Source of the DNA: Eubacterium sp.
GTDB lineage: Bacteria; Bacillota; Clostridia; Oscillospirales; Acutalibacteraceae
Length of the DNA stretch: 59,476 nucleotides
Reading direction: 5' to 3'
Assembly: GCA_022511205.1 (NCBI GenBank)
Contig: JAFLRY010000008.1
Location: 1 to 59,476, forward strand
The notes beneath the pieces are model-generated. The model did no database searches. It was not told the origin of the DNA and saw nothing but the letters and a program-made list of their open reading frames with translations. The stretch's first letter is position 1, and each line of letters starts with the position of its first letter. Positions 19,414-59,476 of the stretch are shown in pieces. Position numbers and translations under genes: made by a program.

Positions 19414-20352
19414 TTATTCTTCCGTGAAGTAAGATTGCTTGTCAACAGAAAGATTGACAGTTCCCCTGATGCTGTCGTTGTGCTTATCAAGCTCGGCGCA
19501 CACGGTAAGTCCCCTGTTTATCTTGCTCTCGAGGTTGTTGCAGCTGCCCAACTTAAACGTAATTCTGTTGTTATAGACAATAGAATTATTGTTTTTGTCT
19601 GTGCTTGATATTGACGTAGCCTCAGTCATATTAAGCGCCTGTATCGCCGAAACGAGGCTTAAGATGCATTGAGTTACATCCTCATTCTCAAAACCGATAG
19701 CATATCCGGGAATTGCGGATTCCACCGCAGTATCGGTTATCATTATCACTCCCGAAGGCTTTTCGGGGGACATTGCTTCAAGCACCTTGAGCCTGTCATC
19801 CGTCAGGATATAAGAATCGTCTCCGTTTTCTATAGCAAATGCCGCTGTTGCATCGGTTATTTCAAGGATCACCGTTGCGGGAAGCTTTCTTGTTATTTTA
19901 ACGTCGTATATATAAGGAAGCGCTTCGGTAAGCTTGGTTATACATTCATTTTTATCGATAAGAAAGAGGTTATCGTCTTTCTCTATCGTGGAAAGCAGGA
20001 TGATTTCCTCAGCGGTATAGGCACTGCTGCCCGTTACGTTGATATCCGTGATTTTAAAGAAAATAGTCAGTGAAAGCGTGATACCCAGCGCAAGAAAACC
20101 GATAAAAACAGCCAAGATGATCAAGACGTTTCGAGCCTTGTTTTTTATCTTTCTTTTTTTGTTTTGGCGTCTGCGCACTTCGTTTTTCGTGTAATTTTTC
20201 GAAGCTTCCCTATCCACCTGCCTAATTCGCAGATAGGGATCATTTCCGCTTCTCGGCGCGGGTTCGAAGCTGTAAGCGCTGAAATCGCTGAAATCGCTTC
20301 GTTCAAACCGCTCGCTATTCTTTTTTGGGGCTTTCCCTGTCTTCTTTTTCAT
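19414..20352 (-). CDS. ftsQ: Cell division protein FtsQ/DivIB
   Basis: This bitopic division protein (312 residues) has a long basic cytoplasmic N-terminus (~1-72), one membrane helix (~73-98, NVLIILAVFIGFLALGITLS) and an outside POTRA domain beginning ITDINVTGSSAYTAEEII. After it comes the beta domain (LPYIYDVKITRKLPATVILE). DivIB/FtsQ links FtsL and septal PBP at the septum. The start is set by AGAGGAT before the ATG, which lies inside the 3' end of murA (38-base overlap), so translation is coupled. The order murA-ftsQ-ftsZ fits Firmicutes dcw clusters. Confidence 0.9.
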   Translation of the reverse strand: MKKKTGKAPKKNSERFERSDFSDFSAYSFEPAPRSGNDPYLRIRQVDREASKNYTKNEVRRRQNKKRKIKNKARNVLIILAVFIGFLALGITLSLTIFFKITDINVTGSSAYTAEEIILLSTIEKDDNLFLIDKNECITKLTEALPYIYDVKITRKLPATVILEITDATAAFAIENGDDSYILTDDRLKVLEAMSPEKPSGVIMITDTAVESAIPGYAIGFENEDVTQCILSLVSAIQALNMTEATSISSTDKNNNSIVYNNRITFKLGSCNNLESKINRGLTVCAELDKHNDSIRGTVNLSVDKQSYFTEE

Positions 20353-21604
20353 CGTTTATCCTCTTGATATCAGCACCGATAAGCGCTAAATTTTCCTCTA
20401 ATTTTTCATATCCTCTATCGATATGGTATATATTCGATATAGTCGATCTTCCCTCTGCCGCCAAAGCCGCCAATACCATAGCCGCGCCTCCGCGCAGATC
20501 GGTGCTGAAAACGTTTGCGCCGTAGAGGGATTTTACGCCGTTTATTATAGCGGTTCTGTCGTTGACCGTTATATCCGCTCCAAAGCGGTTGAGCTCGCTT
20601 ATATGCTTAAATCTGCCCTCAAATATACTTTCGTTTATCAGCGTAGTTCCCGCCGATTTTGTAAGAGCCGCCATCACGATTGACTGGCAATCAGTGGGAA
20701 AACCGGGATAAGGCATCGTTTTGATAAGCTTCACTCTTTTCAGACGTTTTGGAGAAGTTATTTTAAGCGAGTTTTTATCAAAATACAGTTTGCAGCCCAT
20801 TTCCATAAATGCCGGAAGTATCGGCGCAAGATGCTGCGTTCTGATATCATTTATGGTAAGCTCGTCAGCGTTCATTGCCGCCGCGCCCATATACGTTGCG
20901 GCAACGATCCTATCGGGAATGATCGTATGCTCGCAGGGCTTCAGGCCTTCTACACCCTCGATTTCAATAGTACCCTCGCCCGCTCCGAATATCCGCGCTC
21001 CGCAGGAATTGAGGAACGCCGCAAGATCTGATATCTCAGGCTCACGCGCCGCGTTGATTATAGTTGTTTTGCCCTTGGAAAGCGCCGCGGCGATGATTAT
21101 ATTCTCCGTTGCGCCAACGCTGGGAAAGGTGAGAATGATCTTCGCGCCGTGAAATGAGGGCGCCTTGCAACAAAGGCAATTCCCGCTCTCTGCGATGGAA
21201 GCGCCCAGCTTTCTCAGGGAACTGAGGTGAAGATCAATTGGTCTGACACCTATATCGCATCCGCCCGGATAGCAAATATATGCTTCCTTCGTGCGGGAAA
21301 GCAGAGATCCCAAAAATATGATCGAGGAGCGCATTTCACGCATCATATCCTCAGGGATCGTGTTTTTAGCGATCTCGCCTGCGTTTATTATAATCGTGTC
21401 GTTTTCCCGTTTGACCTTTGCCCCGAGATATTCGAGGATTCCGATAGACGCGTCAACGTCTGTTAAATTCGGAACGTTATGTATTACGCTTTCGCCCTTA
21501 ATTAATAGAGTGGCAGCAAGAATAGGCAAAACGGAGTTTTTCGCTCCGTGAACGCAGAGCTCTCCTCCAAGCCTTCTTCCACCGTTAATTATTAATTTTT
21601 CCAA
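20315..21604 (-). CDS. murA: UDP-N-acetylglucosamine 1-carboxyvinyltransferase MurA
   Basis: MurA transfers enolpyruvate from PEP to UDP-GlcNAc, the first committed step to peptidoglycan. Seen: LIINGGRRLGGELCVHGAKN (substrate-binding Lys-Asn) and CYPGGCDIGVRPIDLH with the active-site Cys that fosfomycin alkylates. The start is the TTG at 21604 with AGGTGG five bases upstream; the longer frame adds 18 residues unlike MurA and lies in the structured leader. That gives 429 residues, normal for the family. It overlaps ftsQ. Expression may be controlled by the upstream RNA fold (21613-21696), which pairs with part of the ribosome binding site. Confidence 0.97.
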   Translation of the reverse strand: MEKLIINGGRRLGGELCVHGAKNSVLPILAATLLIKGESVIHNVPNLTDVDASIGILEYLGAKVKRENDTIIINAGEIAKNTIPEDMMREMRSSIIFLGSLLSRTKEAYICYPGGCDIGVRPIDLHLSSLRKLGASIAESGNCLCCKAPSFHGAKIILTFPSVGATENIIIAAALSKGKTTIINAAREPEISDLAAFLNSCGARIFGAGEGTIEIEGVEGLKPCEHTIIPDRIVAATYMGAAAMNADELTINDIRTQHLAPILPAFMEMGCKLYFDKNSLKITSPKRLKRVKLIKTMPYPGFPTDCQSIVMAALTKSAGTTLINESIFEGRFKHISELNRFGADITVNDRTAIINGVKSLYGANVFSTDLRGGAAMVLAALAAEGRSTISNIYHIDRGYEKLEENLALIGADIKRINDEKEDRESPKKE

Positions 21605-21612
21605 ATATTCCA

Positions 21613-21696
21613 CCTGCCATGCATAGTCGCAAAAGTGAATAGCTTCACCCTTTGCCAATAGTGATTTACATCTACATACTATGCGTTTTCGGCAGG
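21613..21696 (-). promoter_or_regulatory. Structured mRNA leader covering the murA ribosome binding site
   Basis: Read on the minus strand, CCTGCC (21696-21691) pairs with GGCAGG (21618-21613), and GCATAGT (21684-21678) pairs with ACTATGC (21627-21621). Inside is a third hairpin: GCAAA (21655-21651) and GTGAA (21648-21644) pair with TTCAC (21639-21635) and TTTGC (21633-21629). The outer helix includes the AGG of the murA Shine-Dalgarno AGGTGG. The fold begins 14 bases after the murG stop. It looks like a translational control element, but I recognise no known riboswitch class. Confidence 0.55.
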
Positions 21697-21709
21697 TTTG
21701 CTAAAACTA

Positions 21710-22828
21710 TTATTTTACAAGGCTTATGATTATTTCGGCTATGCGCTCTCTTGCGTTCGTTATCGCCATGGCCTTTGCGTTGTTTTCTATTTCACGAAGA
21801 ACATTTTCGTCAGAAAGCAGCTCGTCAAGAAGCGCTTTTAATGAATCGGAGGTTAAATCTTTTTCTTCGATTATTCTTGCCGCGTTGCGGTTTACAAGCG
21901 CCATTGCGTTATGATACTGATGATTTTCGGCAACGTAGGGGCTTGGGATAAGTATTGAAGCCTTGCCCAGCGCCTCGATTTCAGAGAGGGACGAAGCGCC
22001 CGCTCTGCCGATAACAACGTCTGCCGCCGCCATACAGATATCCATATTATCAATATACTGCCTTACCTCAACCGTACCCAGCTTGCCGTTTTTAAAGCCT
22101 GCGGCCTCAAATTTTTCAAGATAGGCTGTGCCGTTTGTGCCAACTGAATGGATATGAGAATACTTTTCATTTTGAGCGTTTTCAACGAGGATATCAAACA
22201 TCGCATCGTTGAGCGGAGCCGCGCCGAGGGAGCCGCCGAAGGAAAGCACGAGGGGCTTATCCTTTGGTATATTCAGCTGACTTCTTGAAAATTCCTTATC
22301 GGCTTCAAGTATCTCCCCTCTTACGGGAAGCCCCGTAACGGTGATCTCGCCCTTTGCCTCAAGGTGCTTAATAGCGTCCTCAACCGTTACCATAACCTTA
22401 TCCACCTGCTTAGCAAGGGTTTTGTTGGTGATGCCCGGGAAAGCATTTTGCTCGTGCAGGCAGGTGGGGATTTTCATTTGTATGGCCTTTTCAAGCACAG
22501 GGCCTGAAACGTATCCTCCAAAGCCCACGCAAACGTCAGGCTGAAATTCTTCGATTATTTTTTTGCTCTCGCCGCTTGATTTAACAAGATTCAAAAGCGT
22601 TTTCACGTTGTGCTTAATGGCACTCGGAGAAAAGGAGCGACGAAAGCCGCTGATATCTATGGTTTTAAAATCAAAGCCCGCGTTGGGAACGAGCCTTGCT
22701 TCCATATGATCTGCTGTGCCTACGAACAGTATTTCGGAATCGGGATAATTCTCTCTAATATACGAGGCTACCGCAAGAGCGGGATTGATATGCCCCGCCG
22801 TGCCGCCTGTTGCGAATAAAATTTTCAT
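21710..22828 (-). CDS. murG: Lipid II synthase MurG
   Basis: MurG adds GlcNAc to lipid I at the inner membrane face, producing lipid II. Seen: FATGGTAGHINPALAVA (Gly-rich loop 1), CVGFGGYVSGPVLEKA, HEQNAFPGITNK, SFGGSLGA (loop 3) and the donor-binding GRAGASSLSEIEALG with PSPYVAENHQYHNA. Length (372) is normal. AGGAG precedes the ATG, nine bases after the ftsW stop. The 105-base gap before murA is one of the few long gaps in the cluster. Confidence 0.98.
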   Translation of the reverse strand: MKILFATGGTAGHINPALAVASYIRENYPDSEILFVGTADHMEARLVPNAGFDFKTIDISGFRRSFSPSAIKHNVKTLLNLVKSSGESKKIIEEFQPDVCVGFGGYVSGPVLEKAIQMKIPTCLHEQNAFPGITNKTLAKQVDKVMVTVEDAIKHLEAKGEITVTGLPVRGEILEADKEFSRSQLNIPKDKPLVLSFGGSLGAAPLNDAMFDILVENAQNEKYSHIHSVGTNGTAYLEKFEAAGFKNGKLGTVEVRQYIDNMDICMAAADVVIGRAGASSLSEIEALGKASILIPSPYVAENHQYHNAMALVNRNAARIIEEKDLTSDSLKALLDELLSDENVLREIENNAKAMAITNARERIAEIIISLVK

Positions 22829-59142: not shown

Positions 59143-59476
59143 ATGTTTTCTGCAATACTATCCTTTTTAAGTGCAAATCTACTCTATTTTATTCTGCACA
59201 TCAGCAATGCCTCCAGCTTCCCGAAGCCACTCGGCCCAAAGGAGGAAGCGGCGGCGCTGGAAAGATTCAAAAACGGCGACACCGCCGCCCGCTCGCTCCT
59301 AATTGAGCGAAATCTGAGGCTTGTCAGCCACATCGTAAAAAAATACTACTCAAAAACCAACGACACAGACGACCTTATCTCCATCGGCACTATCGGGCTT
59401 ATCAAAGCGATCGACAGCTTCAACCCCGAGCGAAATATTAAGCTTGCCACCTACGCCAGCCGCTGCATTGAAAATG
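59143..59476 (+). CDS. sigK: Sporulation RNA polymerase sigma factor, sigma-K type (5' part)
   Basis: The reading frame runs off the window after 111 codons. CGGTGAT lies four bases before the ATG. The start, MFSAILSFLSANLLYFILHI, is a hydrophobic leader like the pro-sequence of pro-sigma-K, followed by FPKPLGPKEE. Region 2 is typical: LLIERNLRLVSHIVKKY and DLISIGTIGLIKAIDSFNPE, then KLATYASRCIEN. Sigma-E shares this region, but SHIVKK and the FPKPL context favour sigma-K, and no spoIIGA precedes it. Sigma-K acts late in the mother cell during sporulation. Region 4 is not in the window. Confidence 0.85.
   Translation, partial: MFSAILSFLSANLLYFILHISNASSFPKPLGPKEEAAALERFKNGDTAARSLLIERNLRLVSHIVKKYYSKTNDTDDLISIGTIGLIKAIDSFNPERNIKLATYASRCIEN

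Follow-up and report, generated by a model that had tools for sequence, protein, structure and literature searches.

MurA, the target of fosfomycin, carries out the first committed step in making peptidoglycan. In the window, a 59,476-nt stretch of DNA from Eubacterium sp., one copy of murA lies downstream of murG, and the 105-nt gap between the murG stop codon (21710) and the murA TTG start codon (21604-21602) holds an RNA structure that involves the murA Shine-Dalgarno sequence (SD). This raises the question of what controls murA at this locus. The whole structure is read on the minus strand, and all coordinates are window positions (Table 1). An initial annotation had described two nested helices around a third hairpin, with the AGG of the SD taken up by the outer helix. 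All of these elements were present in the gap, and both sequence and fold place the AGG of AGGTGG within the outer helix, the SD being only partly inside. The fold has an outer helix of 8 bp and an inner helix of 7 bp; the third hairpin of 27 nt folds alone with -9.4 kcal/mol. An in-frame GTG (21613-21611) occurs near the TTG start. The minimum free energy was -31.7 kcal/mol for 101 nt (z = -3.34) and -34.3 kcal/mol for 130 nt (z = -2.90), with one of 200 dinucleotide shuffles as good in each case, bearing out the earlier view that the pairings are hard to explain by chance. Likewise, no riboswitch class had been recognised, and an Rfam search with gathering and permissive thresholds gave no match at the element up to an E value of 10; the Rfam matches in the window were tRNAs elsewhere.

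Table 1. Features of the murG-murA region in window coordinates.
Feature	Position	Strand	Basis or remark
murA, copy downstream of murG	20315..21604	-	NF006873 525 bits, TIGR01072 509 bits, both over cut-off
murG, upstream gene, would-be source of read-through	21710..22828	-	TIGR01133 275 bits, over cut-off
ftsQ/divIB-like gene	19414..20352	-	weak FtsQ match, 29 bits, below cut-off; position
Outer helix, 5' arm ACCUGCCG	21690..21697	-	fold; between -35 and -10
Outer helix, 3' arm UGGCAGGU	21612..21619	-	fold; overlaps murA SD
Inner helix, 5' arm GCAUAGU	21678..21684	-	fold; overlaps -10
Inner helix, 3' arm ACUAUGC	21621..21627	-	fold
Third hairpin GCAAAGGGUGAAGCUAUUCACUUUUGC	21629..21655	-	fold; 3' of predicted start
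murA SD AGGTGG	21610..21615	-	sequence; 5 nt before TTG start
-35-like element TTAGCA	21699..21704	-	exact pattern match; 17 nt before -10 hexamer
-10 element CATAGTATG	21675..21683	-	TAGTAT = 21681-21676; CATANNATR motif
Predicted transcription start, internal promoter	21662..21671	-	placed ~7 nt after the -10

The initial annotation had missed a promoter that lies between the arms. In the window it reads TTAGCA, 17 nt, TAGTAT, and its -10 part matches CATANNATR, the sigma-K-type core for which the 110 nt upstream of murA were scanned in three samples. The genus sample contained 68 of 80 genomes, the matches of the 12 omitted ones showing only the paralogue or lacking the N-terminus of this copy. 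For the order we used 68 of the 77 genomes outside the genus that matched at E ≤ 1e-110, leaving out the nine weakest, and 76 further contigs, with four duplicates of genus genomes set aside, formed the named-contig sample. The motif was present at 66 of the 68 genus loci (shuffled mean 2.3) and at 57 of the 68 order loci outside the genus (shuffled mean 0.9). Named contigs with murG upstream of murA carried it in 15 of 16 cases (shuffled 0.6), those without murG upstream in 32 of 60 (shuffled 2.4). The textbook sigma-K -35 element is AC. This dinucleotide stood exactly 17 nt before CATA at 47 of the 57 order loci and 30 of the 32 loci without murG, and 16 or 17 nt before it at 36 of 64 genus loci, with GC in that place at others. 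The genus consensus at the -35 place is W-T-A-R-C-A; the window reads AGCA, with GC in place of AC, and 27 of 66 genus loci likewise have AGCA here. A sigma-A promoter at murA was set aside, as position 3 of the -35 element is A at 51 of 66 loci. Within the own genome, the promoter patterns gave 6, 1, and 5 matches compared to 3, 0, and 3 for reversed-pattern controls, which is weak as counts; the matches include dpaA, a Mn-catalase gene, and murA. A further sigma-K-like site (L301, G000:C23:75241-75268) precedes a short reading frame rich in Cys, Asn, and Gly, which we take to resemble a spore coat protein.

Several individual loci differ in their surroundings. At L126-L158, named contigs in which murG does not precede murA, the promoter-hairpin module is likewise found before murA; at the eight such module loci inspected, two of them beyond L126-L158, an ftsQ-like gene follows murA and unrelated co-directional genes lie upstream. 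At some genus loci (among them L071, L076, L079, and L080) the -10 element is very near the SD, which places the internal transcript start at or just before the SD; judged from the sequence, the internal mRNA of these loci would be nearly leaderless. The murG-murA gap of L042 (genome G009) measures 343 nt and contains an insertion with GGTAACGGTAATAATCCGAACC at one end and the inverted copy at the other; the insertion lies upstream of the murA promoter and resembles a small non-autonomous transposon.

The accessibility of the SD was calculated as an opening cost for the read-through RNA and for a transcript starting at the internal promoter. Loci lacking the motif or having the SD too near the assumed +1 were omitted, leaving 57 of 68 genus, 59 of 68 order, and 45 of 76 named loci; at 11 of the 68 genus loci the SD starts inside the assumed +1 region or ahead of it. 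The genus loci required 10.7 kcal/mol to open the SD in read-through RNA versus 2.0 kcal/mol in the promoter transcript, and the read-through cost was at least 3 kcal/mol higher at all 57 loci. The corresponding values were 7.7 versus 2.7 kcal/mol in the order (at least 3 more at 38 of 59 loci) and 6.7 versus 2.0 kcal/mol in the named contigs (33 of 45). When only the part upstream of +1 was shuffled, the read-through cost was 3.9, 4.2, and 3.3 kcal/mol in genus, order, and named contigs, respectively. The native sequence beat at least 19 of 20 shuffles at 55 of 57 genus, 36 of 59 order, and 28 of 45 named loci; the hairpin thus stands out less clearly beyond the genus. For the window itself the opening cost was 8.4 kcal/mol in read-through RNA and 1.9-2.7 kcal/mol over ten start positions of the promoter transcript. 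Only this measure differs there: the mean unpaired probability of the window SD was 0.17 in the read-through and 0.16 in the promoter transcript, since weak pairing to the new 5' end persists in the latter. The duplex formed between upstream sequence and SD reached -20.8 kcal/mol at murA in the genus (n = 30), compared to -8.9 kcal/mol at murG starts (n = 28) and -8.3 kcal/mol at ftsQ starts (n = 17).

Arm sequence and loop length change completely between genera, and what stays constant is the sigma-K-type promoter that the arms enclose. On visual comparison, the outer-arm pairs were CCTGCC/GGCAGG in the window, CCCGCC/GGCGGG in L041, CCTCCGC/GCGGAGG in L263, ACCACCTTCT/AGAAGGTGGT in L099, and CTGCCGTTTA/TAAACGGCAG in L225. 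Arms were swapped between loci in a sample of 54 of 68 genus loci and 104 of 107 others, with a 3' segment of at least 12 nt and five duplicate loci removed. Arms from the same locus paired better than swapped arms (mean z of -1.72 for the 54 genus loci and -1.78 for the 104 others), and the native pairing ranked among the best 5% of swaps at 23 of 54 and 52 of 104 loci. The sense RNA paired better than the antisense at 39 versus 14 of 54 and at 84 versus 20 of 104 loci. This advantage exceeded the swap control (P = 0.001 for 54 loci and 5e-7 for 104 loci; the pairing and shuffle tests count related loci as independent), which argues for an RNA element rather than a DNA palindrome. Compensatory change in relatives, which the initial annotation had proposed to look for, was thus found in the arm swaps, the opening costs, and the upstream shuffles, and the SD hairpin is conserved by pairing and not by sequence. 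The pairing is not universal: by eye, no hairpin surrounds the -10 element in L070, L074, and L079, some gaps keeping the promoter without an obvious hairpin, and L070 and L074 lack CATANNAT in its strict form. The sequence of the third hairpin is unconserved, and many relatives have none in this gap. Two other candidates were rejected. A kink-turn or protein-binding loop (AUGA...AGA in near relatives) owes its constancy to the -10 element and is lost in other genera, and a leader peptide was dropped since the loop ATG is not conserved.

A comparison was provided by dpaA, for which the relevant passages of PMC3789822 report transcription from a sigma-K promoter in both B. subtilis and C. difficile. 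Twenty-nine of 30 genus loci were used for the motif and 22 of 30 for the opening cost; in the own genome dpaA was assigned by the best matches to DpaA families, which are below the cut-offs, and by the adjacent dpaB, which passes the cut-off for one of its two families. Of the 29 loci, 27 had the motif upstream of dpaA, and in 26 of the 27 an AC preceded it by 16 or 17 nt. The opening cost of the dpaA SD was 3.3 kcal/mol in read-through, 2.7 in the promoter transcript, and 3.6 after shuffling, and 2 of 22 loci beat the shuffles. Hence, dpaA carries the murA type of promoter and at most loci no SD hairpin. In one sub-lineage (L296, L297, and L298) the dpaA promoter, by eye, appears in an SD hairpin (CACCCTTT.../...AAAGGGTG), and other sigma-K genes may therefore have acquired the promoter-in-hairpin arrangement too.

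With a probability of roughly 0.74, we propose that a late mother-cell promoter of the sigma-K type is placed inside the SD-sequestering hairpin, so that read-through is silenced and the sporulation transcript is translated. This reading is supported by computational evidence throughout, namely by the conserved promoter, the conserved SD pairing, the compensatory change, the strand-specific pairing, and the hairpin-free dpaA promoter. The promoter in the gap would belong to a late mother-cell sporulation sigma factor, with the -10 element and the predicted start point between the hairpin arms and the murA SD in the 3' arm. Messages coming from the murE-murG side would hold both arms and fold, hiding the SD and leading to poor murA translation. 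Late in sporulation, mother-cell polymerase would start between the arms and produce a leader that lacks the 5' arm and leaves the SD accessible. The positions in the window agree with this order, as both 5' arms lie ahead of the predicted start or overlap the -10 hexamer, and a transcript from that start would have neither. The third hairpin, being downstream of the predicted start, would form part of the modelled sporulation transcript. We infer that sigma K reads the promoter, that transcription begins at the predicted start, that read-through reaches murA, and that translation drops when it does. Since arms and loops vary between genera and the promoter is constant, the simplest switch would be the choice of promoter from which the transcript is made. 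The earlier suggestion of a translational switch for MurA was supported with regard to an RNA structure that takes up the SD, but the sensing of a wall precursor, a protein, or temperature found no support.

The most serious alternative concerns the sigma factor. If sigma E rather than sigma K read the promoter, murA would be switched on earlier in the mother cell, which we consider unlikely but well worth keeping in view. As described in parts of PMC3789822, the two factors share a common -10 element in C. difficile and differ at -35, with ATA for sigma E and AC for sigma K, and the same account describes an AC/CATATAAT promoter for sigK itself; for B. subtilis sigma K, passages of PMC517825 give a 5-nt -35 and a 10-nt -10 element 14-16 nt apart. 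Many genus loci read ATAACA or ATAGCA, which speaks for sigma E, but AC at 17 nt dominates at the order loci and those without murG, and this form recurs in the dpaA promoters of the genus. From the sequence, sigma K appears to be the better guess for murA; the AGCA of the window is atypical.

Other readings accept less of the arrangement. It is improbable that the promoter is real and the hairpin acts on the internal transcript or on mRNA stability instead of blocking read-through. Such a role would recall the small ribosome binding site hairpin of B. subtilis sigG, and it draws on the third hairpin of the window, which lies 3' of the predicted start, on the SD pairing that remains in the promoter transcript, and on the 11 genus loci outside the cost test; yet the SD costs about 2 kcal/mol to open in the genus promoter transcripts, and its pairing partner lies upstream of the start. 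We give slightly less credence still to a leader that controls MurA translation in response to a ligand, a protein, or temperature, with the promoter motif incidental. A stable structure does hold the SD, but the lack of an Rfam match, the absence of common arm or loop sequence across genera, and the widely varying loop length argue against it, and the sole constant sequence has promoter spacing and recurs at dpaA, mostly without an SD hairpin. Palindromes around -10 and +1 are common operator designs, and the inverted repeat might accordingly serve as a DNA operator for a repressor rather than as an RNA element; the wide variation in arm spacing and sequence and the sense-strand advantage beyond the swap control make this very improbable. 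The inserted palindromic repeat offered as an alternative in the initial annotation can be practically dismissed, as nothing was found in its favour: a 141-bp stretch matched only itself in its own genome, which refutes a mobile repeat at the threshold used (E ≤ 0.001), and the same arrangement occupies the same place in dozens of species.

The sporulation genes of these genomes bear on sigma K as the reader. A sigma-K family search matched 80 of 80 genomes, with 1 of 80 passing the cut-off; as 11 of 14 control genomes matched as well, these matches are no proof of sporulation. In the own genome sigK is split at about codon 111 into a 5' part at window positions 59149-59475 (+), ending at the contig edge, and a 3' part at G000:C8:2-349, which begins another contig. 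In four genomes (G025, G062, G077, and G098) both parts occur on a single contig, on the same strand and ~8-34 kb from each other, and the split looks like a skin-type intervening element. SpoIVA is a better sporulation marker, for which the search covered two members of this genus. The motif is also kept in seven genomes of the order in which SpoIVA had no match (G059, G107, G144, G172, G184, G199, and G212; 75-97% complete, three of them 93-97%); either SpoIVA was missed in these or the promoter has another use. In genus g36, four genomes have neither SpoIVA nor a murA match at E ≤ 1e-110 and a SpoIVA-positive member has such a match, a co-absence that is an anecdote confounded by ancestry.

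The genomic neighbourhood is compatible with read-through into murA. The genes upstream are co-directional and closely spaced, and no terminator-like site was found on the same strand in the murG-murA gap; for these reasons, vegetative transcripts probably enter murA. The ftsQ/divIB-like gene probably shares the internal transcript with murA. Further upstream, a sigma-A-like promoter (TTAACT, 17 nt, TATAAT) occurs at 30322-30294 (-) before a gene for a PASTA-domain penicillin-binding protein and may drive vegetative transcription of the cluster. A second murA (G000:C34:73770-75020) is 42% identical and exceeds the cut-off of a different MurA equivalog. In all, 69 of 80 genus genomes have at least two murA matches, some of which are split genes. 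The second copy could serve growth, and the MurA encoded downstream of murG would then function in spore cortex synthesis, a division of labour between paralogues that we infer. A broader version holds that, throughout this order of gut Clostridia and in some further lineages, the murA copy that leads murA-ftsQ works in the spore cortex: the hairpin in read-through mRNA keeps it silent in growing cells and only the nested sigma-K promoter frees it, with the second murA supplying growth. Insulation by a promoter in a hairpin would in that case be a general way to place a developmental gene inside a housekeeping operon. This version we regard as tentative, its chances lying a little short of even.

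If the proposal is correct, the two MurA paralogues of these spore formers divide their labour in time, which is directly testable. The locus also calls for caution in annotation: conserved, covarying SD hairpins are not always riboswitches, and what stays constant in them can be a promoter enclosed by the arms.

A late murA transcript as proposed here fits the sigma-K control of wall-precursor genes in other spore formers. Passages of PMC12251134 report sigma-K control of murAA, murB, murC, and murF in B. subtilis, and passages of PMC3789822 that of murE and glmS in C. difficile; murA, as a whole word, is absent from the main text of the latter. The common feature is that enzymes for peptidoglycan precursors are upregulated late in the mother cell to build the cortex, whereas no hairpin figures in the portions of these accounts drawn on here. 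Searches combining murA with promoter, sigma-K, or sporulation, and searches for read-through or ribosome binding site hairpins, yielded no title on a murA leader of this kind among the incompletely covered journals.

The arrangement itself has close counterparts. According to the relevant sections of PMC3014915, T4 gene e, encoding lysozyme, and I-TevI have a late promoter inside a stem that sequesters the ribosome binding site: long early transcripts fold and translate poorly, and transcripts from the late promoter lack the 5' portion and translate well. As at murA, the promoter sequence is part of the 5' strand of the structure. The T4 cases are phage genes read by a phage sigma factor and were demonstrated by experiment, whereas murA is a chromosomal gene for a cell wall enzyme with a sporulation-type promoter, known by sequence only. 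In B. subtilis sigG (spoIIIG), as outlined in passages of PMC5942855, a large hairpin blocks the mRNA that reads through from spoIIG and cannot form in the mRNA from PsigG. Beside sigE, the genome of the window has no sigG. Like murA on the reading proposed here, B. subtilis sigG is a sporulation gene 3' of another transcription unit, with a hairpin only in the read-through RNA; it differs in being a regulator gene with a sigma-F/sigma-G promoter active in the forespore, whereas murA has a promoter of the mother-cell type, found order-wide. If the proposal for murA holds, the design known from T4 and from one sporulation gene of Bacillus has been conserved as a means of setting a developmental gene apart within a growth operon. 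As far as the accounts of T4 gene e and B. subtilis sigG go, both use the same design as that proposed for murA, which thus belongs to a kind already known.
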